Virus record (IMG/VR): IMGVR_UViG_3300031851_000046
Location: 1 to 44,993 of that record
Direction: 5' to 3' (one strand)
DNA length: 44,993 nt
Origin: a virus
In this document: positions 3,111 to 16,623 of the stretch, piece after piece
Numbering within the stretch: the first letter of the stretch is position 1
Layout: each line of letters opens with the position of its first letter
Translations under genes and position numbers: made by a program
Notes under the pieces: generated by a model
Database searches by the model: none
Told to the model about the DNA's origin: nothing
The model's input: only the letters and a program-made list of their open reading frames with translations

Positions 3111-5072
3111 TTATTTTTTATTAAATTTTTTACTGTGATATAATAGTGCAGAAGAATACGTGTCTAATTGATGTTCTATAGAAATATTATTAATTTCAGC
3201 GATAGTTTCAAGAGAAATTATGTTTTTGGGATTTTTAATTATATCATCCGCCCTACGTGACCAAGTTTCTCTCTCTGAAGATGTTATTACAGACTCGCAT
3301 AAGCGATCCAATAAATCTTTATGGTTTTTCGTAAACCTTTTTATTTTGTTCTCTTTCTTAAGCTTAGCCATTGTGGTTCGTCTAAATGCGTCTGTTTCTT
3401 TGACTATGTCTTGAATATAATCTACATTATAAAAATCTTTCTTGGCTTCAGTCTGCTTGGGTATGCCTGAAGTGCCCGTAGGTCTGCCGGCAGATTTTGG
3501 GGTTTGGTTATTATTTGGCTGCTCTGCGCCAGCCATCATAGGAACTCCGCCAACTAGAGGATTGTAATATCCTTTTTCTCTCTCTTCTACAAAAGCTTCT
3601 TGTGCAGGCTCAATTAATTTAGCATCAGGAAAGATTCCAGTTTTAATAACGTCGAGACCTTGTTGCGGGGTAAGTACCCCGATCTCCATAAGCCTCGTGG
3701 TCACCCTTTGTAATTGGGTCTCGTCTTTCACATTTACCTCCTCAAATCTTGCTACTGGAGCTTTCTTCATGCCTAGATTTTTACAAAGCTGATCGATCTC
3801 AGGCTGAAGGAACTGGTGGAGAAATGCGTTCCTAGACTCTTTCAATCTTTCTAGGAATATTTCTGCCTTTACAGCAGTGTTGGAGAATTTTTCTTGGCCG
3901 ACAATAATATTTTGCAAGCCCTCTTTAATATCTTGATTAACAATTTCGTATTTTTCAGGACCGAGCACTTTATTGATTTCAGGAATCACAAACTGAGCTT
4001 TGGTAGTATAGTCACTAACAAGAACCCGACCAACACTTTCGTTTTGAAAAAGGCTTTGCATTGCAACTAAATTTTTAGGATTCACGCCCCCCTTATCAGG
4101 CTCTGCCCCCATAGTAATTAATAGGATTACATTCTCTATAGTTCGAGTAATAGCCTGATCAATCTTTTTCAATTCAAGCTTGAAATTGATATCGTCTAAA
4201 ACTGGAAAACCGAATGGTATAGCAAATGGCTCATAATCTTGTTTCTTATAAAAGCAATATCTTAAATATTTTGGATCTAAATCTACCTTAATACCATCTC
4301 TGAGATATCCTCCGTTCTTGATTTTTTCCTTTGCTTCAGGAGAGAGGGCTTTGTATATCTCTACATCAGAATCGGTTTTAGGGTTCTTGAGTCTTTCGAG
4401 TTCGTATTCACTGAGAATTTTTTGATATAACGATGTGGAAAAAGATGAGCTATGTTTTCTTACAATATCATAAGGATTAATGATAATATACCTTAAGGGT
4501 AATTCGTTTTTAGATATAACCGAAAGCTTTTTCGAGAAATTTTTAAAGTCTCCAAGCTTAAACTTACCCTGTATTGTGTAAAGAAAAACATTGCCAGACC
4601 TATAATACTCCCTAAAGAATTGGTCTTTCAATGTCCAGAGATTGACTTTCTTAAACCAACTTTCTATAAAGTTTCTAGAAGCGGCCGTTCCTCCCTCCAG
4701 TACCAATTCTGCATTCGAGAATTCTGCCATAATATCTATAGCGTTTCTAAAAATAGAAACGTTCGCATAAGCTTTTTGGCATAACTCGATAGATTCCTGT
4801 ATATGTATACCTCCCTTGCTGTAAGAATATGGAAGCATGCCTTTTCCAATATTATCGTAAGTCGCGCCTTTATCTGAATTTGTTGCTACATTCCTTCTGC
4901 GAGTTGTCGTGTTCGTGGCAGATGCCCCTCTTGAGGCCACAGACTGATAAAACCCTTCTCCAGCCAACTCAGGCATCCACGATGCTTGGCTTTCCATAAA
5001 TGGCGAAGGTTGCGGATCTTGTTCAAATTTTTTCCAGTAGTCTGATTTTTTGGTATATTTTCGTTTGCTCAT
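3111..5072 (-). CDS. Portal protein
   Basis: This 653-residue protein is encoded directly between the large terminase and the prohead protease, the usual portal position. It has the length and features of T4-like portals: a basic N-terminus, a central region with FFREYYRSGNVFLYTIQGKF followed by a short hydrophobic strand, and a later helical region (NIIVGQEKFSNTAVKAEIFL). It would form the dodecameric ring at the capsid vertex through which DNA enters. Residues about 505-540 are Pro/Gly/Asn-rich and probably disordered. The C-terminal 60 residues are basic. Family assignment is from context and general pattern. Confidence 0.8.
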   Translation of the reverse strand: MSKRKYTKKSDYWKKFEQDPQPSPFMESQASWMPELAGEGFYQSVASRGASATNTTTRRRNVATNSDKGATYDNIGKGMLPYSYSKGGIHIQESIELCQKAYANVSIFRNAIDIMAEFSNAELVLEGGTAASRNFIESWFKKVNLWTLKDQFFREYYRSGNVFLYTIQGKFKLGDFKNFSKKLSVISKNELPLRYIIINPYDIVRKHSSSFSTSLYQKILSEYELERLKNPKTDSDVEIYKALSPEAKEKIKNGGYLRDGIKVDLDPKYLRYCFYKKQDYEPFAIPFGFPVLDDINFKLELKKIDQAITRTIENVILLITMGAEPDKGGVNPKNLVAMQSLFQNESVGRVLVSDYTTKAQFVIPEINKVLGPEKYEIVNQDIKEGLQNIIVGQEKFSNTAVKAEIFLERLKESRNAFLHQFLQPEIDQLCKNLGMKKAPVARFEEVNVKDETQLQRVTTRLMEIGVLTPQQGLDVIKTGIFPDAKLIEPAQEAFVEEREKGYYNPLVGGVPMMAGAEQPNNNQTPKSAGRPTGTSGIPKQTEAKKDFYNVDYIQDIVKETDAFRRTTMAKLKKENKIKRFTKNHKDLLDRLCESVITSSERETWSRRADDIIKNPKNIISLETIAEINNISIEHQLDTYSSALLYHSKKFNKK

Positions 5073-5133
5073 TAAATTTTATTACACGTGTTTTTATATA
5101 ATAAAAGTATAAAGTCACTTTTAAAGTACTTTT

Positions 5134-7005
5134 TTACTTTATAAACATGGGCGTAAAATCTAGATAAGTCGGGCGAATGTCAACATTTTGGAAATCATAG
5201 TACAATTCAACCATCCAGTTCCCGAGGACAAGCGCGGAGTATGAGTCCTTTCTTGTTTTTTCGGGGCCACTTTGTCTCTTCAAGTTATCTGGAAGGTCGA
5301 ATGTTTGAGTTCCTTGAGGCGAAGTTTTTATTTGAATTAGGGCGCACTCAGTTTTTGTAAGATTAATCATATCATACTGATGCTCAATAAAGTCAATTAG
5401 TTTTGCGGCGGATGTTTGTCCTTCTTCAGAGTTCCTGCTTAGAAACTTAAGTTTCTGGATAGGAATTTTCTTTCTGCGTTGGATTGCGTAATCTTCATCA
5501 ATTGCTCTAGAGCCAAACCATATTCTTTTATGATCGAAGTTGGCCTGCAAAGACTCATTTGCGCGCCTAATCCAATCTGAGTTGGGCTTGCGGAGAAAAC
5601 ATATTTTCTTTGACTTTAAGTTATACTGCTTACGGGTTTCAGCTAATACAGATTGATAGTCACTTAGATCATCAAATTTTAAATCAACAACCCCAAACTC
5701 AACTTTATCTTTCTTAAATAGGCTGCTTTCATTTACTGCATTAATAAATTGCACACCACCCATATAGTCAGCAACGATAGATACAATATTAAATTTTTCT
5801 ACCAAATATTTAAAATAAAATATGTGATCTTTGAGTCTTGTGCCTGCCATTGCATAGCTATGAACCAAGGTTCCTTGTCTCGACTTGTCATTTAATTTAA
5901 TTACATGCATTGCAAAGTCGTCAGAGCTTTCACTTTCTGCCCAACTAGGGTCGATTGCAAGTATATATTTTGCATCAGCTTCCCCCGCAATCTCAACGCA
6001 TTGCCCCTCTCCGTCAGGTATGGTACATTCAGCCATCTTTGAAGTCTTGAAGTATCCGCTACTATCATCTGTAAATACAGCATTAAATTCTCGATCAAAT
6101 TGAGATTGACTCATTGTAGCTTTGGACTGATTAATAAGATTCAAATCATACAATTGCTTTGGAGCACAGTCATAACTAAAATGCATAATAGACCTACGGG
6201 CATTAGACCCATCGTTTTTATCTACATGATTAGTAATTAAGCCCTCGAAATTAGAATACAACTTATATAAATATTCAAATTTGTAACTAGCAGAAGAGAG
6301 CATGATTAATTTATTGTTTGGCCATCTATAGCGATCCTCCTCTTTCATTTTCCCTTGGGAAATTAAATTAGTCTCGAGATTATATAAATCTTCTCTTTGT
6401 GTCGGGTTTTCCACCACAGAAAGGAAGGGTACGATAACCTCATTATAAATTCTTTCAGGCATCAAAAGCATCTCATCGATAATGATTCTATGAAATCGAA
6501 AACCCCGTAGCTTGGAGCCGTCACCTAAGGGCAGCGCCCTAATTCTGCTTCTCCCGATTTCCATAAGCCACTCATCATTACTTTTACTTTTTTTTGTTAT
6601 GCAGTTGGCTAGAAATTGAGCCTCAGGTTTAGAGGCGATATCTTCAATCTTTTTAAATATTTGCTTAGACTGCCTAAATGATGCAGCGAGAATCCCAATC
6701 TCCATGCCTTGATTTAAAATTGCGTCCAGAAATGCGTATATTCCTGTCGTAAAAGATTTCGACATTCCCCGACTCCAAATACCGAGAAAATAATCTGTTT
6801 CGAACATTGACTTAATCGCCATATGCTGAAAGGGAAATAGATCTACGCCAGCCAATAAACTAGTCGTAAATGTAATATTTTCTCTCAAAAACTTATAAAG
6901 CAATATCTTCGCTTCGCTTTCCTCAAGAAAGCCGCATTCAAGGAGTATCTTATTGATATCTTCTTTACTCGGATTTTGAGGTTGATTACCAGTTTCCCAT
7001 GTCAT
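5134..7005 (-). CDS. Terminase large subunit
   Basis: A 623-residue DNA packaging motor. The ATPase half shows FPFQHMAIKSMF, a variant Walker A (SRGMSKSF, residues 78-85), a Walker B (RIIIDEM, D177 E178) and a coupling motif LSSAS near 236-240. The nuclease half starts with YILAIDPSWAES (D352) and continues with IVADYMGG (D413), as in RNase H-fold terminase nucleases. The start codon overlaps the stop of the upstream nuclease gene as TAATG, suggesting coupled translation. Walker A lacks the usual GKT/S glycine-lysine order, as in many T4-like terminases. Confidence 0.93.
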   Translation of the reverse strand: MTWETGNQPQNPSKEDINKILLECGFLEESEAKILLYKFLRENITFTTSLLAGVDLFPFQHMAIKSMFETDYFLGIWSRGMSKSFTTGIYAFLDAILNQGMEIGILAASFRQSKQIFKKIEDIASKPEAQFLANCITKKSKSNDEWLMEIGRSRIRALPLGDGSKLRGFRFHRIIIDEMLLMPERIYNEVIVPFLSVVENPTQREDLYNLETNLISQGKMKEEDRYRWPNNKLIMLSSASYKFEYLYKLYSNFEGLITNHVDKNDGSNARRSIMHFSYDCAPKQLYDLNLINQSKATMSQSQFDREFNAVFTDDSSGYFKTSKMAECTIPDGEGQCVEIAGEADAKYILAIDPSWAESESSDDFAMHVIKLNDKSRQGTLVHSYAMAGTRLKDHIFYFKYLVEKFNIVSIVADYMGGVQFINAVNESSLFKKDKVEFGVVDLKFDDLSDYQSVLAETRKQYNLKSKKICFLRKPNSDWIRRANESLQANFDHKRIWFGSRAIDEDYAIQRRKKIPIQKLKFLSRNSEEGQTSAAKLIDFIEHQYDMINLTKTECALIQIKTSPQGTQTFDLPDNLKRQSGPEKTRKDSYSALVLGNWMVELYYDFQNVDIRPTYLDFTPMFIK

Positions 7006-7949
7006 TATGACTCTCCTTTATTGTTCATTGATTTATCTATATAATACTGCATATCGCAATCCCACAATTTATCTCCTAAAGTAACAATTTTTGGAATAAT
7101 CTCTTCGGACTTTGATCTGCTACCGGAAAAAATAAATTGACATACTCCAGCGTATTCATGGGTGAGCACCCTCATATTATGCCAGACATATTTCAAGTTA
7201 GACTTATGAGAGGCAAAGTTGTTGTTTCTTTGGATTTTATCTATACTAGATTCAACCACGACAAACATATAACACCCAAAATCTCTTGTTCTATCTAGTT
7301 CTTTTTTGAATCTGTCAAAGCCCGTAGTCATCGTGGACTTAAAATCCTGTTCGCTTTTGCGGTCAACGTAGGTATATGCATAATCATCCCCAGCAGCAGT
7401 ATAATCTCCGAAATCCAGTTTCATTGTAGATTCATTTTTAAATGATAAAGGTTTCTGTTCTCTAGTATCAATGAATATTTTTGTTTCCAAAAAATCATCT
7501 ATGAAAAATTCTTTAGGAATCCTCTTTGTGAATATAGGGTGAACCCCAATCTCATCGCAAGCAGCAGAATAAGAGCCAAAGAGCATCTTAAAACTGTCTA
7601 TCGGTGGTAAGTCAAGTATCTCTAGCTCTAAATGATTAGGGGCCTTCTTAAGGCCCTTCTCGATGACGCGGAGGCTTAACTGCTTAATGGCATATTGCTT
7701 GGCTCTTTCACCCTGCTTATTCTTTGCAAGCCATTGGATCATTTGCCATCTCGTGGAGAAATCATTATTAAAGTAATCTTTTTTGTTTTTAAAAGGCAAA
7801 GGTTCTCCGGTAAGTAGGTTATTCCTAGGGTAATACGCCGTATAATACTCCGCCATAGTTATTGAATGCGACTTTAAATGAATATGAAGACCTTTCTCTG
7901 AATCGAAAGACTTATCGCATATCTTACATACTATAGGGTTCGTGTCCAT
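7005..7949 (-). CDS. C2H2 zinc finger plus ERCC4-type nuclease
   Basis: With the ATG at 7949 this is 314 residues; a TTG 24 bases upstream (7973) is an alternative start. Residues 8-28 form a classical C-X2-C-X12-H-X3-H zinc finger. Residues about 165-250 match the ERCC4/XPF nuclease core: IFIDTREQKPL, KLDFGDYT, then YVDRKSEQDF in the place of the family ERKxxxD, and GFDRFKKELDRT. Known members cut branched or flapped DNA. The gene overlaps the upstream oxygenase and is joined to terminase by a TAATG, so it is made with the packaging motor and could resolve DNA branches before packaging. That role is inferred. Confidence 0.82.
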   Translation of the reverse strand: MDTNPIVCKICDKSFDSEKGLHIHLKSHSITMAEYYTAYYPRNNLLTGEPLPFKNKKDYFNNDFSTRWQMIQWLAKNKQGERAKQYAIKQLSLRVIEKGLKKAPNHLELEILDLPPIDSFKMLFGSYSAACDEIGVHPIFTKRIPKEFFIDDFLETKIFIDTREQKPLSFKNESTMKLDFGDYTAAGDDYAYTYVDRKSEQDFKSTMTTGFDRFKKELDRTRDFGCYMFVVVESSIDKIQRNNNFASHKSNLKYVWHNMRVLTHEYAGVCQFIFSGSRSKSEEIIPKIVTLGDKLWDCDMQYYIDKSMNNKGES

Positions 7950-8524: not shown

Positions 8525-9563
8525 CTCTAGATAAACCAAGAATCCTAGCTTTCCAAGACTCCATAGATTCTAATCTATCAGCTTCTTCGTTAACTAATTT
8601 CTTTTGCATTTGCGCCATCTTTACCATGACCTCTCTTTCTTTTTCACTCTGGAAACTCTCCACAAGGGAGAGGATATTTGCATTTTGGCCCTGCTTACTC
8701 TCTATTCTTCTAGAACGGTCGCCATTCAATTTTTTAATCAAAGACTCCATTCTCTTTTCGCATTTATCATACTCTTCACTTTTTGTTTTTAGTAGTTCAG
8801 CGAGCCTAACAGTCATCTCCTGTTGAGAGTCTGCGTCATTAAACATGCGATTCAACTTTTCGATATTACGACTTATATTCCTAAGATTAATATAATCAAT
8901 ACAAACATTAATGTATAAATTAACTTCATCAGTTGTAAGATCGGGCTTTTCCCATGTAGCTCTCACGAACTCGGCCTCAAAAAGCTCTCTGTCTTCAGCC
9001 TCCCTATAATTGTTGATTGTATTTAAAAAACGCGGAGCGCATAGAAAATGTATGATTTTTTCCATAGATTTTTTTTCTATAGAAGAAAGCTCTTCATCAG
9101 AAAGAGTAAGGTTGAGGTATCTATTCACAAGGATAACAGCTTCCTCGAGATTAGAAGGCGGACAATATTTCTCCTTTGCCTTAGGTTTCTCTGATTGAGA
9201 TATTAAAGTAGGGGCAACATCTGTCAAAAAGGACATTACAGCGCGTTGCTCCATAGATAATTTTTTAACCTCAACGTCAGGGAAAACTATTTGAGCAACT
9301 TGAAATGAGCTTAGTCCATCTTCAGCCAAGTCAAGGATTTCCTCTTTTTGATCATCCGTTAATGAGATAGGATCTTTCTTTTCTTTCTTTGTGGTATTAA
9401 AATTCAAGTCCTCCTCAATTAGAAAATCTTTAACTGCCCGGCCCTCTTTAGACCTACCGTCTAATGTTTCGTCTAGAAAGACAGCTTGGGTCAACTTGAT
9501 TAAATCTGGAATTTTTTTATGGTTTGCTTTAAGGTAAGCTTGTTGCTCTTTATTTAACTTCAT
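8511..9563 (-). CDS. Late-block protein with duplicated N-terminal module
   Basis: This 350-residue protein is not recognised. Residues 3-48 and 68-113 align without gaps over 46 positions with 13 identities, including F-x-D, S-x-E-x-RAV and a final FL, so the N-terminal half is an internal duplication of a helical, helix-turn-helix-like module. Residues about 220-340 are highly charged and likely coiled coil. Its place two genes upstream of terminase and next to a sigma factor fits either a small terminase subunit or a late transcription factor; I cannot decide between them. Confidence 0.55.
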   Translation of the reverse strand: MKLNKEQQAYLKANHKKIPDLIKLTQAVFLDETLDGRSKEGRAVKDFLIEEDLNFNTTKKEKKDPISLTDDQKEEILDLAEDGLSSFQVAQIVFPDVEVKKLSMEQRAVMSFLTDVAPTLISQSEKPKAKEKYCPPSNLEEAVILVNRYLNLTLSDEELSSIEKKSMEKIIHFLCAPRFLNTINNYREAEDRELFEAEFVRATWEKPDLTTDEVNLYINVCIDYINLRNISRNIEKLNRMFNDADSQQEMTVRLAELLKTKSEEYDKCEKRMESLIKKLNGDRSRRIESKQGQNANILSLVESFQSEKEREVMVKMAQMQKKLVNEEADRLESMESWKARILGLSRDDAV

Positions 9564-9564
9564 A

Positions 9565-10281
9565 CTACATTATTATATCAGTTCGGTCAAGTATTTCTTC
9601 AGCTTTAGCTAAAAACATTTTTTTAAGATTCTTAATCTGCTTATAACCAGCCTTTCTCCCCTTCTCATTACTCTTGTAGCCCATAGTTTCGGCAACCTTT
9701 TCATCAGGAATATTTTCGATATATATTAACCTATATATCTTGTAGTGCTTTTCGCTTAACCTGCTTTCCATTTCTTTATGCAATTTTGTAGCACATCGAA
9801 CTACATCAAATGAATCCTGTTGAATGCTGAAGACTTCTTGAGGGTGGTGGTCTAAAGCAAGCGGCATCTTTATATCATAAGCATTTTTTTTGGTTTTTTC
9901 CCATTTAGCATATAAGGGGCATTCTGAGCATTGCACGCCGCTTGGGGTAAAAGCACACATTCCGGAATGAGACTCGTCTGCTTCGGTTGATGAAGATTGA
10001 GCAAAAGGACAGCTTAAACATGGTCTGGCGAAATTGGTATAATGATTTCGAAAAATATTCTTAAGTTGATTGGATATAATTTTATTTACCCAAGGAGCCA
10101 ATGATCTTTTCTGATCCCATTGATCCCATTTTTTATATATGTGGGCGCGGATTATTTGCTCTACATCGTCATAATCCATCCATGCCAGAGCGTGGAGATG
10201 CCATTTGTGCCTTCTCTTGCGAAGCTCGTTATCTATTACGTCTGAACGATCTTCGTATTTAAGTTTTTTTGGTCTACCCAT
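9565..10281 (-). CDS. Sigma-70 family factor with cysteine cluster
   Basis: A 238-residue protein. Residues 33-80 look like sigma region 2 (MDYDDVEQIIRAHI, then SLAPWVNKIISNQLKNIF) and residues about 172-222 like region 4, with a helix-turn-helix (LSEKHYKIYRLIYIENIP, then EKVAETMGY). Between them lie C88-x2-C91, C109 and C118-x2-C121, which could bind zinc or an iron-sulphur cluster; such an insertion is unusual in sigma factors. Its position in the late block suggests a late-promoter specificity factor analogous to T4 gp55. The start overlaps the stop of the zinc-ribbon gene by eight bases. Confidence 0.78.
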   Translation of the reverse strand: MGRPKKLKYEDRSDVIDNELRKRRHKWHLHALAWMDYDDVEQIIRAHIYKKWDQWDQKRSLAPWVNKIISNQLKNIFRNHYTNFARPCLSCPFAQSSSTEADESHSGMCAFTPSGVQCSECPLYAKWEKTKKNAYDIKMPLALDHHPQEVFSIQQDSFDVVRCATKLHKEMESRLSEKHYKIYRLIYIENIPDEKVAETMGYKSNEKGRKAGYKQIKNLKKMFLAKAEEILDRTDIIM

Positions 10282-12045: not shown

Positions 12046-12234
12046 ATGAATAAATTTCAAATTTTTCAAAGATTATGTGACAGCTTAGGACCAAGGGATG
12101 CAGCGGCTTGGTTAGGAGAACCTCATAAAACATTAAAAGGAGCATATCCTGCAGATTATATTAAGGCTGATAATTTAAAACCTTTAATAAAAATAATAGA
12201 AAAAGAGTTTCCATGTTTGAAGAAGGGAAAATAA
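12046..12234 (+). CDS. MbcA/ParS-like antitoxin-type small protein
   Basis: A 62-residue protein. The segment RDAAAWLGEPHKTLKGAYPA followed by DYI resembles the toxin-binding domain of Xre/MbcA/ParS antitoxins (DUF2384), where a WL-x-x-P...L-x-G-x-x-P pattern is typical. There is no toxin gene beside it. It may neutralise a host toxin, or regulate the fibre operon as a repressor at the adjacent palindrome. The fibre gene overlaps its last 22 bases. The similarity is short and the call tentative. Confidence 0.45.
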   Translation: MNKFQIFQRLCDSLGPRDAAAWLGEPHKTLKGAYPADYIKADNLKPLIKIIEKEFPCLKKGK

Positions 12235-14177
12235 AGTTTTCTGATATAAAGACTTTTTTAGAAACTAATCCTGACGGAGTTGAATCATCCAGTGTTGCTG
12301 GATGGAGCGCGCCATTTAAGATGCCGAATGAACTTGATGCGTTTGGACAAGCCATAGGGTCTCTAAGAGGGGGATCAAGCTATACGCGATCAAGTTATAG
12401 TTTTTCTGAATTTAGAGGTATTACTAAAGCTGATTTGCCTGTTATAACTTCTGATTTAATTATTAATCAAACTATTACATCTTTTATATTTAATTTCTCT
12501 TATCAAATTGTAGCTTCTAATATGTCTGGAGATAAAAATCATCCTTTCTTGTATACTATAAATAATAATGCTTCAGTTGGATCTTTAACTGTTAGTAATA
12601 CTGGATTGATTAGTGGAGTAATTGATGTGAGTTCTAAAACAATAGTCAACAATAGCCTAACTTTATCCTTTAATGCTATAGCCGCCAACTATGCAGGAGC
12701 TTCTGTTCAGCCAATTACTTTAAATTTAACCGTATCCCTACCAAACGAAAAACCAGAGATAGAAATAATAGGACTTAATCCTAAATATTTAATCACTGGA
12801 GATACCTACAATGATGAAGGCGCCACAGCTTTTGACCCAGAAGACGGATCATTAACTAGTAGCATAGTAACCACCAACCCAGTCAACACAGCCGTCGCCG
12901 GAACTTATCAAGTAAAATACAATGTTCAAGATTCTCAAGGACTCGCTGCAGATGAAAAAATAAGAACAGTGATAGTAAATCTGCCAGCAAACGACCCACC
13001 AGTTATTACGCGAACTGGCCCAGCTTCTGTTACAATTGTTCAAAACACAACATATACCGATCAGGGCGCAACAGCTTCCGATGCACAAGACGGAAATATA
13101 ACTTCAAGAATAGTCACTGTAAATCCTGTAAATACTTCAGTACCAGCTACTTATAGAATAACTTATAACGTAACCGATCTAGGTGGACTGTCCGCAGATC
13201 AAGTAACAAGGATTGTTGTTGTAGAGCCTGAGCCGAACACTCCACCGACAATAACCTTAACAGGAAGCGCAGCAGTTTCTGTGAATGCAGGATCAACTTA
13301 TACCGACCAAGGAGCAACAGCAACAGACGCACAAGATGGCAATCTCACAAGTCAGATTGTTGTAACTACTTCTGAGGGAGGCACTAGTGCAAATATATCA
13401 ACCACAAATCCCAGAGCACTTACTATAACATATACCGTGACAGATTCGGGAGGAATGAGCGCAAGCACAAGTCGACAAGTTACAATTGTAAATACACCGC
13501 CAGTTATTACATTGATTGGAGATCCAGTTGTTAATATTGGACCCCCGCCTACCCCAACATCAACTCTCCCGGAGGATTTTATCACAGCTCAACAAGATTG
13601 TGATCCTACTGCGAACTTAGATGGATACCTATATGATGAAAACCATTACGTGATTAGATATGCAGCGGTTCAACGTTCTGGGCAATTTACTGCCCGCGGT
13701 CAGGTTTATGAGTTTTATTGTTATGGTTCTGCCAGCTCGTTTGTAACAAATGCCCCGAATTTTACCCCATTTTATACACTTCAAGCTAAGACATTAAGTT
13801 TATTTAACACATCAATCTGTGTTGGATGGGCCTCTTGGCAATATTCGGCTCAGGCTGGAGGGCAGGAAATGGCAGCATTTGGGCTTGTATATGACGGGAC
13901 GAGGAATTCTATTTTACTACATACTCTCGACACCCCGTATATAGCCTCTAATGTTAATGTTTTGGCCTCCTCCCAGAATTATAGACAATACATACATCCC
14001 CAGAATTGTTCAACATCAGATAGTCTAGATCGTTATGACACGAATTCAGCTGCATCTGGTGGTCGAGGAGTCATCATTGAGAATAACGGAGGACTAACCT
14101 CACATATAGAAGCATTGCAGGTCACTGCTGGTACTGATCTAGAACAAATTAGCATTTACCCAATCAAGAAAGTATGA
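12213..14177 (+). CDS. Tail fibre with Ig-like DUF5011 repeats and tip
   Basis: A 654-residue protein. Residues 1-75 are a short N-terminal attachment region, 80-176 an Ig/cadherin-like domain, and 180-256, 261-337 and 343-427 three DUF5011-type repeats with the hallmark YTDQGATASDAQDGN or close variants and a YxVTDxxG strand. A fourth repeat begins at 428 (PPVITLIGDPVVNIG) but stops after its first strand at residue 443. From there a Pro/Thr linker leads into a distinct C-terminal tip (about 455-654) starting CDPTANLDGYLYDENHYVIR. Such a protein would bind the host surface. The stop overlaps the next gene's start as ATGA. Confidence 0.78.
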   Translation: MFEEGKIKFSDIKTFLETNPDGVESSSVAGWSAPFKMPNELDAFGQAIGSLRGGSSYTRSSYSFSEFRGITKADLPVITSDLIINQTITSFIFNFSYQIVASNMSGDKNHPFLYTINNNASVGSLTVSNTGLISGVIDVSSKTIVNNSLTLSFNAIAANYAGASVQPITLNLTVSLPNEKPEIEIIGLNPKYLITGDTYNDEGATAFDPEDGSLTSSIVTTNPVNTAVAGTYQVKYNVQDSQGLAADEKIRTVIVNLPANDPPVITRTGPASVTIVQNTTYTDQGATASDAQDGNITSRIVTVNPVNTSVPATYRITYNVTDLGGLSADQVTRIVVVEPEPNTPPTITLTGSAAVSVNAGSTYTDQGATATDAQDGNLTSQIVVTTSEGGTSANISTTNPRALTITYTVTDSGGMSASTSRQVTIVNTPPVITLIGDPVVNIGPPPTPTSTLPEDFITAQQDCDPTANLDGYLYDENHYVIRYAAVQRSGQFTARGQVYEFYCYGSASSFVTNAPNFTPFYTLQAKTLSLFNTSICVGWASWQYSAQAGGQEMAAFGLVYDGTRNSILLHTLDTPYIASNVNVLASSQNYRQYIHPQNCSTSDSLDRYDTNSAASGGRGVIIENNGGLTSHIEALQVTAGTDLEQISIYPIKKV

Positions 14178-15352
14178 CAGATTACTATCAAGATCCCGGA
14201 GCAACCGCAAGTGATGCCGAAGATGGCGACATCACTAACAAAATTGAAAAAACTATAACAAAAACCACGACGTTTAAAGGTTCAACCCTTGAGGCGCCCG
14301 TAGATAATATACCATTGGATTCAGAAGGCTCATATACAATTAATTACAGCGTTACGGATAGTGCAGGGGTTTCAGGTTATGCATCAAGGCGGGTAGAGGT
14401 GGCGCAAAAAAAGCTCTTATCTGCCTCAACTTGTGGCACTGTTGAGGCTGACTATGCATTTGATGCGAATCATTTTATTCGCCTTGATTATGACCCTCAA
14501 ATAGCCACATCCTTGGGGCAGGGCCCTTACAACACTCCTTCTTGGTTAGACTATCTGGGTAACGATTCTGCATTCCCATTTGTTGATGATTCAGTCCTTA
14601 CTCTTTCGTCTCAAGGTGGCCAACCAAATGTGAGTGCCATCAATTATTTAAATCCGTCATTTGGCACATTTATTCCCGATGATATTCATCCGATTTTTTT
14701 CCAGCAGAGTATTGAACTTTATCCAAGCGGAATAGCCGTCTACCATAGAAAGCACACATGGTATCACAACTTTTCGCAAATAGTTATAGGCAACTGGAGT
14801 GGTGGAGGGATTAATGGGGATAAGCCCATACAGGTTACATTCACAAATTCAAGACCTCCGCAAAAAACTGAAGAGATTATCCTAGAGACTGGGTTCAATT
14901 TTAACTACGCAGTTGTTGCAGACCCGTGGGGAGATGGTAATACATTTGTCCTTTCTGGTCAACCGCATGTCATGGACTTAAAGCAAGGTGCAAGTTTGGG
15001 TCTTGATTTCGGACAGGAAGTGACACTATGTTTTACTGCCCCAACGCAAGACCATGTTTGGACTAAAATATCCGGCAATGGTCAAAATCTTCTATACCCT
15101 GACCCTCAGGATACCACGCAACCAAATCCTAATGGATGGGGCGGTGGACATGTGCAACCCGGTCTTCTTGACGGAACCTCATCCAGCACAGTAACAAAAA
15201 CTTTGGTACAAGGAGAAGGCTTAACAATGGAGAGGCCTGAGATGAAAGCTAACTACATATGGAGTATGACGAAGGTGGCGAAACCAACGCCAATTGATTG
15301 GAGCGGGTTTGGCTCCGGTGCGGTCTTTTTCCTCTCTGGTCAACTTGTTTAA
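14174..15352 (+). CDS. Second fibre tip gene starting inside a DUF5011 domain
   Basis: A 392-residue protein. It starts at TDYYQDPGATASDAEDGDIT, which corresponds to the second strand of a DUF5011 repeat; the first strand is absent here but present at the end of the preceding gene's repeat series (residues 428-443). After the repeat ends near residue 78 comes a tip whose beginning (CGTVEADYAFDANHFIRLDY) parallels the tip start of the first fibre. An AAGAAAG lies just upstream of the ATG, and the ATGA overlap suggests coupled translation. It may be a displaced former tip of the same fibre, or a separate subunit docking on it. Confidence 0.68.
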   Translation: MTDYYQDPGATASDAEDGDITNKIEKTITKTTTFKGSTLEAPVDNIPLDSEGSYTINYSVTDSAGVSGYASRRVEVAQKKLLSASTCGTVEADYAFDANHFIRLDYDPQIATSLGQGPYNTPSWLDYLGNDSAFPFVDDSVLTLSSQGGQPNVSAINYLNPSFGTFIPDDIHPIFFQQSIELYPSGIAVYHRKHTWYHNFSQIVIGNWSGGGINGDKPIQVTFTNSRPPQKTEEIILETGFNFNYAVVADPWGDGNTFVLSGQPHVMDLKQGASLGLDFGQEVTLCFTAPTQDHVWTKISGNGQNLLYPDPQDTTQPNPNGWGGGHVQPGLLDGTSSSTVTKTLVQGEGLTMERPEMKANYIWSMTKVAKPTPIDWSGFGSGAVFFLSGQLV

Positions 15353-15355
15353 TTT

Positions 15356-15919
15356 ATGAAATCTTACTTTAGTGAACATTCGATTAAGGTATCCAAAGAT
15401 GGTATAAATAACCATCGCTCTTTACTCGGATACAAAATTGCTGATTTTGGCTCAGATATTGAGCAGCGCATAAAAGATGAATACCCCGAGGATATTTTAG
15501 AGTTATACAAAAAACTTCACGAATCCTGTAGGTCAGTCTTCTTTGGCTTAGATAATCAAAATGAGTGTAAAAAAATTTATTTTGAATCAAACTCTTTTCT
15601 ACATAAAGCAGTTGTGGTTAAAGGTAATGAGAGGAGGTATAAGATATATCTCCAAGGACCGGACGCGGAAGGAATACATTCTTATGAATCATGGGAGACG
15701 GACTCTAGCTTTGAGGTAAAAATTAAGCAACTTGCTACATCACGGGCGGTTTTTTCTAAGATTCGCGAAATGGAAGAATTTTTATTAAGGGTTTGCAATA
15801 ATTATAACCCCTCTTGCCTTAATGATCTTAAGGATTTCTTGGAAAAGGAAAGCGAGTCACAACTTACATGGTTTTCTACAAATCCAGAAAATTTAGAATT
15901 TACTATATATTATGCCTAG
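15356..15919 (+). CDS. Unknown protein after fibre genes
   Basis: A 187-residue protein starting three bases after the stop of the second fibre gene, the last of the plus-strand operon. It is charged and mixed alpha/beta, with no membrane segment or motif I recognise. A tail-fibre assembly chaperone would be expected at this position, but the sequence does not show one. Confidence 0.6.
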   Translation: MKSYFSEHSIKVSKDGINNHRSLLGYKIADFGSDIEQRIKDEYPEDILELYKKLHESCRSVFFGLDNQNECKKIYFESNSFLHKAVVVKGNERRYKIYLQGPDAEGIHSYESWETDSSFEVKIKQLATSRAVFSKIREMEEFLLRVCNNYNPSCLNDLKDFLEKESESQLTWFSTNPENLEFTIYYA

Positions 15920-15929
15920 TAAAACAAAA

Positions 15930-16118
15930 TTAATCAATCTTAAAATCTCCGTACTCTTCTTCTGTCATTCGGACAGTAATTAATTGGCCATTGTCTAAAT
16001 CTATTACGGCAAATATTGCTCCATCATCTTCGCCGCCAATTTCTTCATATTCATTTATGATTGTTCCTTGTATATCTCCTTGCTCTGTTGTAACTATGCA
16101 TTTTTTATTATTTTTCAT
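15930..16118 (-). CDS. Small acidic protein
   Basis: A 62-residue protein, acidic and beta-rich (CIVTTEQGDIQGTIINEYEE), overlapping the end of the oxygenase gene by 11 bases. Composition suggests a small barrel; no known family is recognised. Confidence 0.55.
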   Translation of the reverse strand: MKNNKKCIVTTEQGDIQGTIINEYEEIGGEDDGAIFAVIDLDNGQLITVRMTEEEYGDFKID

Positions 16119-16617
16119 AATTTTTAATCCAATCTAAAACAGTCATATAATTTAATTCGTCTTTTTTCTTTTTAAATTCGCAAGAAAATACATATCTTGT
16201 TTTATTAAAGTTTATTACACAATGATCTATTTGAGTGTTAAATAGATAAAAAGTATTTGGCTCGTATTTAAGTTCTTTTATTTTTTCGACTTGGTATTTT
16301 GATGGTCGAGTTTTAAATAATGTATGGCCGTGATCACACTCCAGCACCATATTCACGGACACTCCGCGATAATCATCCTTGTGCCAATCATAAACACTAT
16401 CTTTTTCGATAGAAATAACTCCAGCTTTCTCAATTTCAAAAGCTTTATCTAGTTCAGACAAAACCGATTCCTGCCTCCAAACTTCTTGAGGCACTTCGGA
16501 TGATGCCCAGTTGAAACGCTGCTGAAAGGAACTCGTGATAGTCGCCAGATTGTTCCTAAAATATGGCGTTATTATAGAGGACGGCTTTTTTATTTTAAAA
16601 AAATACCGGTCACTCAT
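16108..16617 (-). CDS. Second 2OG-Fe(II) oxygenase-like protein
   Basis: From the ATG at 16617 the protein has 169 residues; the TTG at 16623 is a less likely start. H79-x-D81 (DWHKDDYRG), H132 (QIDHCVIN) and R141 (TRYVFS) are spaced like the iron- and 2-oxoglutarate-binding residues of cupin-fold dioxygenases, closest in pattern to aspartyl/asparaginyl beta-hydroxylases. It differs clearly from the prolyl-hydroxylase-like protein at 7931-8524. The substrate is unknown. Confidence 0.65.
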   Translation of the reverse strand: MSDRYFFKIKKPSSIITPYFRNNLATITSSFQQRFNWASSEVPQEVWRQESVLSELDKAFEIEKAGVISIEKDSVYDWHKDDYRGVSVNMVLECDHGHTLFKTRPSKYQVEKIKELKYEPNTFYLFNTQIDHCVINFNKTRYVFSCEFKKKKDELNYMTVLDWIKNYEK

Positions 16618-16623
16618 TGCCAA

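Follow-up and report, generated by a model that had tools for sequence, protein, structure and literature searches.

Tail-fibre tips, or adhesins, are exchanged among T-even and other phages. In metaviromic islands, the C-termini of fibre proteins vary between near-identical marine phages (Mizuno et al. 2014, PMC3909814), and pelagimyophages carry hypervariable host-recognition clusters (PMC7029224). Ig-like extensions on phage structural proteins that are expressed by frameshifting are reviewed in PMC5009743, with Fraser et al. 2006 cited there. The stretch of DNA analyzed here (the window, positions 1-44,993 of IMG/VR record IMGVR_UViG_3300031851_000046) comes from a group of uncultured marine phages. 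It carries an Ig repeat divided between two genes, at a point where close relatives part. Taken as a whole, this arrangement is best explained as that end of a fibre-like, hypervariable adhesin locus at which tips are exchanged, a reading to which we assign a probability of roughly 0.7.

Relatives were drawn from IMG/VR, where scans returned one identical contig (L001/L005), two close relatives (L002 and L003), and a further phage, L004, which was reached through the first of the two tips. Window DNA had no match among INPHARED phages, and at the protein level matched them only through Ig domains. The window's terminase was set aside as a guide to host or genus, as its matches are distant (~24-27%).

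An Ig repeat divided between two genes

Gene 1 (12213-14177, 654 aa) and gene 2 (14174-15352, 392 aa) lie on the plus strand and overlap in an ATGA (14174-14177) that places the gene 2 start over the gene 1 stop. Gene 1 opens with a conserved N-terminal segment (residues 1-73, IKFSDIKTF...YSFSEFRG; 12213-12431) that is identical in L002 and L003, is ~51% identical in a sister genus, and is presumed to be the virion anchor. Next comes a beta-rich domain (residues 77-176; 12441-12740) for which AF2 predicts strands at pLDDT ~60-90 and for which any fold assignment is tentative. Three complete PF16403 (formerly DUF5011) Ig repeats follow (residues 177-427; 12741-13493), matched by Pfam in three stretches (E=6.6e-42; 141.9 bits against a gathering score of 27). 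Only the first ~17 positions of a fourth repeat are then present, TPPVITLIGDPVVNIG (residues 428-443; 13494-13541), after which a proline/threonine linker read from the sequence, PPPTPTSTLPEDFI (13542-13583), leads into a 200-aa tip ending in ...YPIKKV (tip 1; 13584-14174). Gene 2 opens with MTDYYQDPGATASDAEDGDIT, the continuation of a PF16403-type repeat (residues 1-82; 14174-14419), and the rest of it is a second tip (tip 2, residues 83-392; 14420-15352). The names fibre, tip, shaft, and anchor are read from this architecture and should be taken as putative. Neither tip has a family match of weight in Pfam, PHROG, or PDB sequences, the gene 1 locus has no PHROG or Pfam fibre-family match, and a Foldseek search with the gene 1 model returned only generic Ig-repeat proteins at low TM-scores.

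The earlier note on this DNA had proposed that the fourth repeat breaks off in gene 1 and resumes in gene 2, and that joining nucleotide 13541 to 14177 would restore a complete domain. Both proposals are borne out. Gene 2 residues 4-76 match PF16403 profile positions 16-71 of 71 (E=1.2e-10; 41.7 bits against a gathering score of 27). Against an HMM made from 15 such repeats in the window phage and related phages, gene 1 residues 426-442 align to positions 1-17 (16.3 bits) and gene 2 residues 3-78 to positions 21-80 (49.5 bits), so that the fourth repeat is not complete in any single chain. A test string joining both fragments spans positions 1-80 at 67.9 bits. The two fragments thus complement each other, with nothing notable lost or repeated between them, which confirms the 13541/14177 join. 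Because the same halves lie only 8 nt apart in L003, a chance coincidence of two truncated repeats is very unlikely. The break had been placed after the first strand of the domain; this needs correcting, since in AF2 models of the neighboring intact gene 1 repeats two short strands precede the equivalent point (e.g., 346-349 and 354-358), and the cut thus follows strand two.

A scan of IMG/VR and GTDB genomes for mid-repeat ORFs, in which an ATGA start leads into the latter part of the repeat, left only the window/L001 and L003 after filtering; two short Gracilibacteria matches were discarded, their most likely source being the reading of TGA as glycine in that group.

Termination-reinitiation coupling of gene 2 to gene 1 fits both junctions: the ATGA overlap in the window and, in L003, the 5 nt that separate stop from ATG. 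In the window and L003 alike, gene 2 is in the -1 frame relative to gene 1, and phage Ig domains expressed by programmed -1 frameshifting are known (PMC5009743), which together raise the prospect that a slip fuses the two genes into one chain. However, there is no canonical X XXY YYZ heptamer near either stop (canonical sites only were considered), and this disfavors the route. In L003, moreover, a stop in the -1 frame precedes the gene 1 stop by 7 nt, leaving almost no window in which to slip, and in the window a fusion would place the half-domain after tip 1. We regard frameshifting as highly improbable. At the other end of gene 1, a 62-aa ORF (12046-12234) overlaps the gene 1 start and is conserved in L002, L003, and L011, and gene 1 itself thus appears translationally coupled.

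Downstream of gene 2 lies a 187-aa gene (15356-15919, plus strand) that has no family match and that, from its position, could be a fibre companion or chaperone. L004 has a ~190-aa gene close behind each of two fibre-like genes (7368-7925 and 9432-9998). This L004 pair is related (36% over 101 aa) and has a WH-x-N ... WHC ... R-x-S-x-GF pattern that, by eye, resembles 2OG-Fe(II) oxygenases. The window's 187-aa gene was considered as a homolog of the first of them (7368-7925) and rejected, as there is no similarity. On the minus strand beside the adhesin locus, the window encodes a 171-aa protein (16108-16623) with a WHKDD...H...R pattern, also 2OG-Fe(II) oxygenase-like by eye; a weak PHROG match to it names endonuclease V (E=9.5e-5).

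Tip exchange at the junction

The close relatives differ exactly where the fourth repeat is cut. In L003, gene 1 ends in ...GDPVVNT-TAA, followed by TTATT and the ATG of gene 2, with no cassette between them; gene 2 then opens with MTEYYQDPGATASD... and is 92% identical to the window across the 48 residues that the contig covers. In L002, gene 1 runs on from the same point (...GDPVVNIGSTTTSTPADIINGL...) into an unrelated tip. Across 19,401 nt these two phages show 99.79% identity, and they part exactly at the junction, beyond which nothing aligns; their contigs stop 150-260 nt past it, close enough for the errors common at contig ends to matter, and the full tips lie beyond. A single point thus has three haplotypes: tip 1 in the window, another tip in L002, and no tip in L003.

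Tip 1 itself recurs in L004 (6019-6597), with 90.7% DNA identity over 591 nt, beginning at window position 13584, and 83% protein identity. Its carrier there is a different protein of 820 aa (4900-7362), which starts with another N-terminus and has an additional domain towards its C-terminal end; tip 1 sits mid-protein in it, as an internal module rather than a terminal end. The other tip of L002, the lack of one in L003, and the recurrence in L004 mark the junction as a tip-exchange site, and the sequence matches support the view of tip 1 as a portable module. For tip 2, the sole match outside the window was the identical contig L001/L005.

The start of tip 2 had been said to resemble that of tip 1, and this likeness is weak. 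The hand-picked first 40 residues of each do beat all but 13 of 2000 shuffles, but similarity between the whole tips is at shuffle level (155/300) and their BLASTP E-value is 0.27. We therefore reject a common origin of the two tips, as only the picked residues stand out. Modeling of both tips, which the earlier note had recommended, was uninformative: AF2 gave pLDDT <50 for nearly all residues, and no fold is claimed for either.

Divergence along gene 1 suggests that the exchange reaches beyond the tips. Between L002 and L003, 37 of the 41 differences fall at gene 1 nt 446-1256, and none in the preceding stretch of more than 1.1 kb. The sister genus (L014/L015/L016) diverges likewise, from ~nt 430 of gene 1 through the shaft into the following gene, with conserved flanks. 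This clustering, together with the sister-genus pattern, points to homologous recombination that swaps shaft plus tip. The window is 84% identical to L002/L003 across their shared 13.5 kb, but identity rises to ~92% across gene 1 and to 93% across the gene 2 half, suggesting that the locus has been exchanged between lineages.

In the sister genus, gene 1 is ~51% identical and has two repeats, a cysteine-containing tail, and then a separate gene that begins MGTKISEL...; the fourth repeat is absent altogether. After the second Ig repeat, the C-terminus of the gene 1 homolog in L011-L015 (e.g., L014 5550-5790) carries short cysteine-containing repeats (C-x-I/L ... ENG ... NTED ... I-x-VE-x-C) whose number varies by strain.

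We infer recombination as the mechanism and, likewise, that gene 2 is translated and that the proteins are present in the virion and bind receptors. Gene 1 would supply the shaft, with its conserved N-terminal anchor and Ig repeats, and its 3' end, past strand two of the fourth repeat, would be where different tips are joined. A segment of shaft and tip could be exchanged homologously through a single crossover within the 5' third of gene 1, which is conserved, while a new tip such as tip 1 would be joined probably by illegitimate recombination. An invertible (shufflon-like) tail-fibre switch was also considered, for which an inverted second copy of the junction sequence would be expected nearby; the 45-kb window, a genome fragment, has a single copy, and only short, weak repeats lie near the locus. 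The older tip and the rest of the fourth repeat would now occupy their own ORF, translated by coupling. The window phage thus likely makes both proteins and would have two receptor-binding tips, used as alternatives or jointly.

Origin and possible use of the half-domain

How the split arose bears on the history put forward in the earlier note, in which a cassette with its own stop was inserted into an intact domain and left the old tip as a separate gene. The portability of tip 1 (L004) and the exactness of the exchange site (L002 and L003) speak for that account in part. Its central step, an insertion that creates gene 2, finds no support in the form given, as the two-gene split exists without the cassette in L003. 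Related phages with an uninterrupted fourth repeat, which that history anticipates, were not found in IMG/VR scans with gene 1, gene 2, the gene 1 N-terminus, tip 1, the half-domain, and the PhoH neighbor, and the sister genus has no fourth repeat. The same note had held that its history would fail if relatives all had two genes and the half-domain folded as a complete domain by itself. Two genes are indeed present in L003, the only relative whose contig reaches gene 2; for gene 2 residues 1-82 the Ig fold predicted by AF2 is confident, but it lacks the first two strands.

An ancestral single-chain fourth repeat is nonetheless suggested by the complementarity of the halves. Gene 1 may have gained its tips after the split had already occurred, or the cassette may have come first, in which case L003 may represent a cassette loss that left a stop and the gene 2 start. 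The IG codons at the junction, kept in the window and L002 and absent from L003, lean slightly towards a cassette-first order with loss in L003, on the strength of three haplotypes only.

Whether the divided domain still serves a purpose is a separate matter. Split domains are usually expected to lose function. By that expectation the fourth repeat could be dead on both sides, with gene 2 an expressed or decaying leftover whose half-domain has no role; in keeping with this, L003 has no notable separate ribosome-binding site upstream of gene 2. Gene 2, however, is a full 392-aa open frame whose start codon position is kept in both the window and L003, and its half-domain is under purifying selection: between these two phages the gene 2 half has dN 0.037 and dS 0.26 (dN/dS ~0.14) and gene 1 has dN 0.036 and dS 0.235, values that indicate the same constraint on both. 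We consider a relic unlikely.

The same constraint would be expected if strands 1-2 from gene 1 and the remainder from gene 2 reassembled in trans into one Ig domain, mounting gene 2's tip non-covalently on gene 1's shaft and making the window's product a branched, two-tipped adhesin. The break position is identical with the cassette (window) and without it (L003). Gene 2 starts exactly with the missing part and has no recognizable anchor, while the second gene of the sister genus has its own MGTKISEL-type N-terminus. The gene 1 fragment shows no differences over 45 nt between the window and L003, where neutral divergence would predict about nine, and none among all three haplotypes, which is far from neutral decay; yet clean 45-nt runs occur at 8% of gene 1 positions, and the fragment is not exceptional. 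The half-domain may also stand alone, as AF2 models residues 1-82 at pLDDT 86-97 without the missing strands. VIA-align matched this model to two structures, with moderate scores that fit the PF16403 assignment: 7jrl, the INT Ig domain of C. perfringens ZmpB (Z 5.8 over 60 residues at rmsd 2.8), and 2kpn, a Big_3 domain (Z 5.5 over 70 residues at rmsd 5.5). Such docking seems to us quite unlikely. It is compatible with the tip-exchange explanation and adds to it. If it occurs, exchangeable tips would be mounted by domain complementation, and the window's shaft end would carry two different tips; the reunited halves would form a natural split-domain coupler for swapping receptor-binding tips.

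Comparison with known phage systems

The tip-exchange reading places this locus close to several described systems. As in frameshift-expressed phage Ig domains, an Ig-like domain occurs in a structural or adhesin context with its second part in another frame, but here a slippery site is lacking, the change of frame falls inside the Ig domain rather than before it, and gene 2 has a separate ATG with an overlapping or adjacent stop. The PF16403 Bact_surface_Ig-like (DUF5011) family is also used by Alteromonas phage V22 ORF155 and Alteromonas phage R7M; in these, a single annotated ORF contains the matched repeats, whereas a repeat spread over two ORFs was found, in the scans we ran, only in the window lineage.

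As in T-even tip exchange, receptor-binding ends appear to be swapped mosaically by recombination against a conserved shaft. Unlike in that system, the chain break falls inside a domain, and no PHROG or Pfam fibre family is matched. Here, exchange of the tip of a presumed phage adhesin is caught at base resolution, between strains 99.8% identical elsewhere. One tip is common to two different carrier proteins, and the joint lies within an Ig domain divided between two proteins.

The closest likeness is to metaviromic islands and host-recognition clusters, in which near-identical marine phages differ at the receptor-facing C-terminal end while the N-terminal part is conserved. L002 and L003 behave in this way (99.79% identical over 19.4 kb, then unrelated), and the sister genus is alike. 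Unlike in metaviromic islands, the switch point here is one codon inside an Ig-like domain whose parts belong to two ORFs, and a tip cassette is traceable into a different protein of another phage. The locus is thus best filed as an instance of the known hypervariable host-recognition island, to which it adds a new detail: the joint falls within an Ig repeat whose parts are encoded by two genes.
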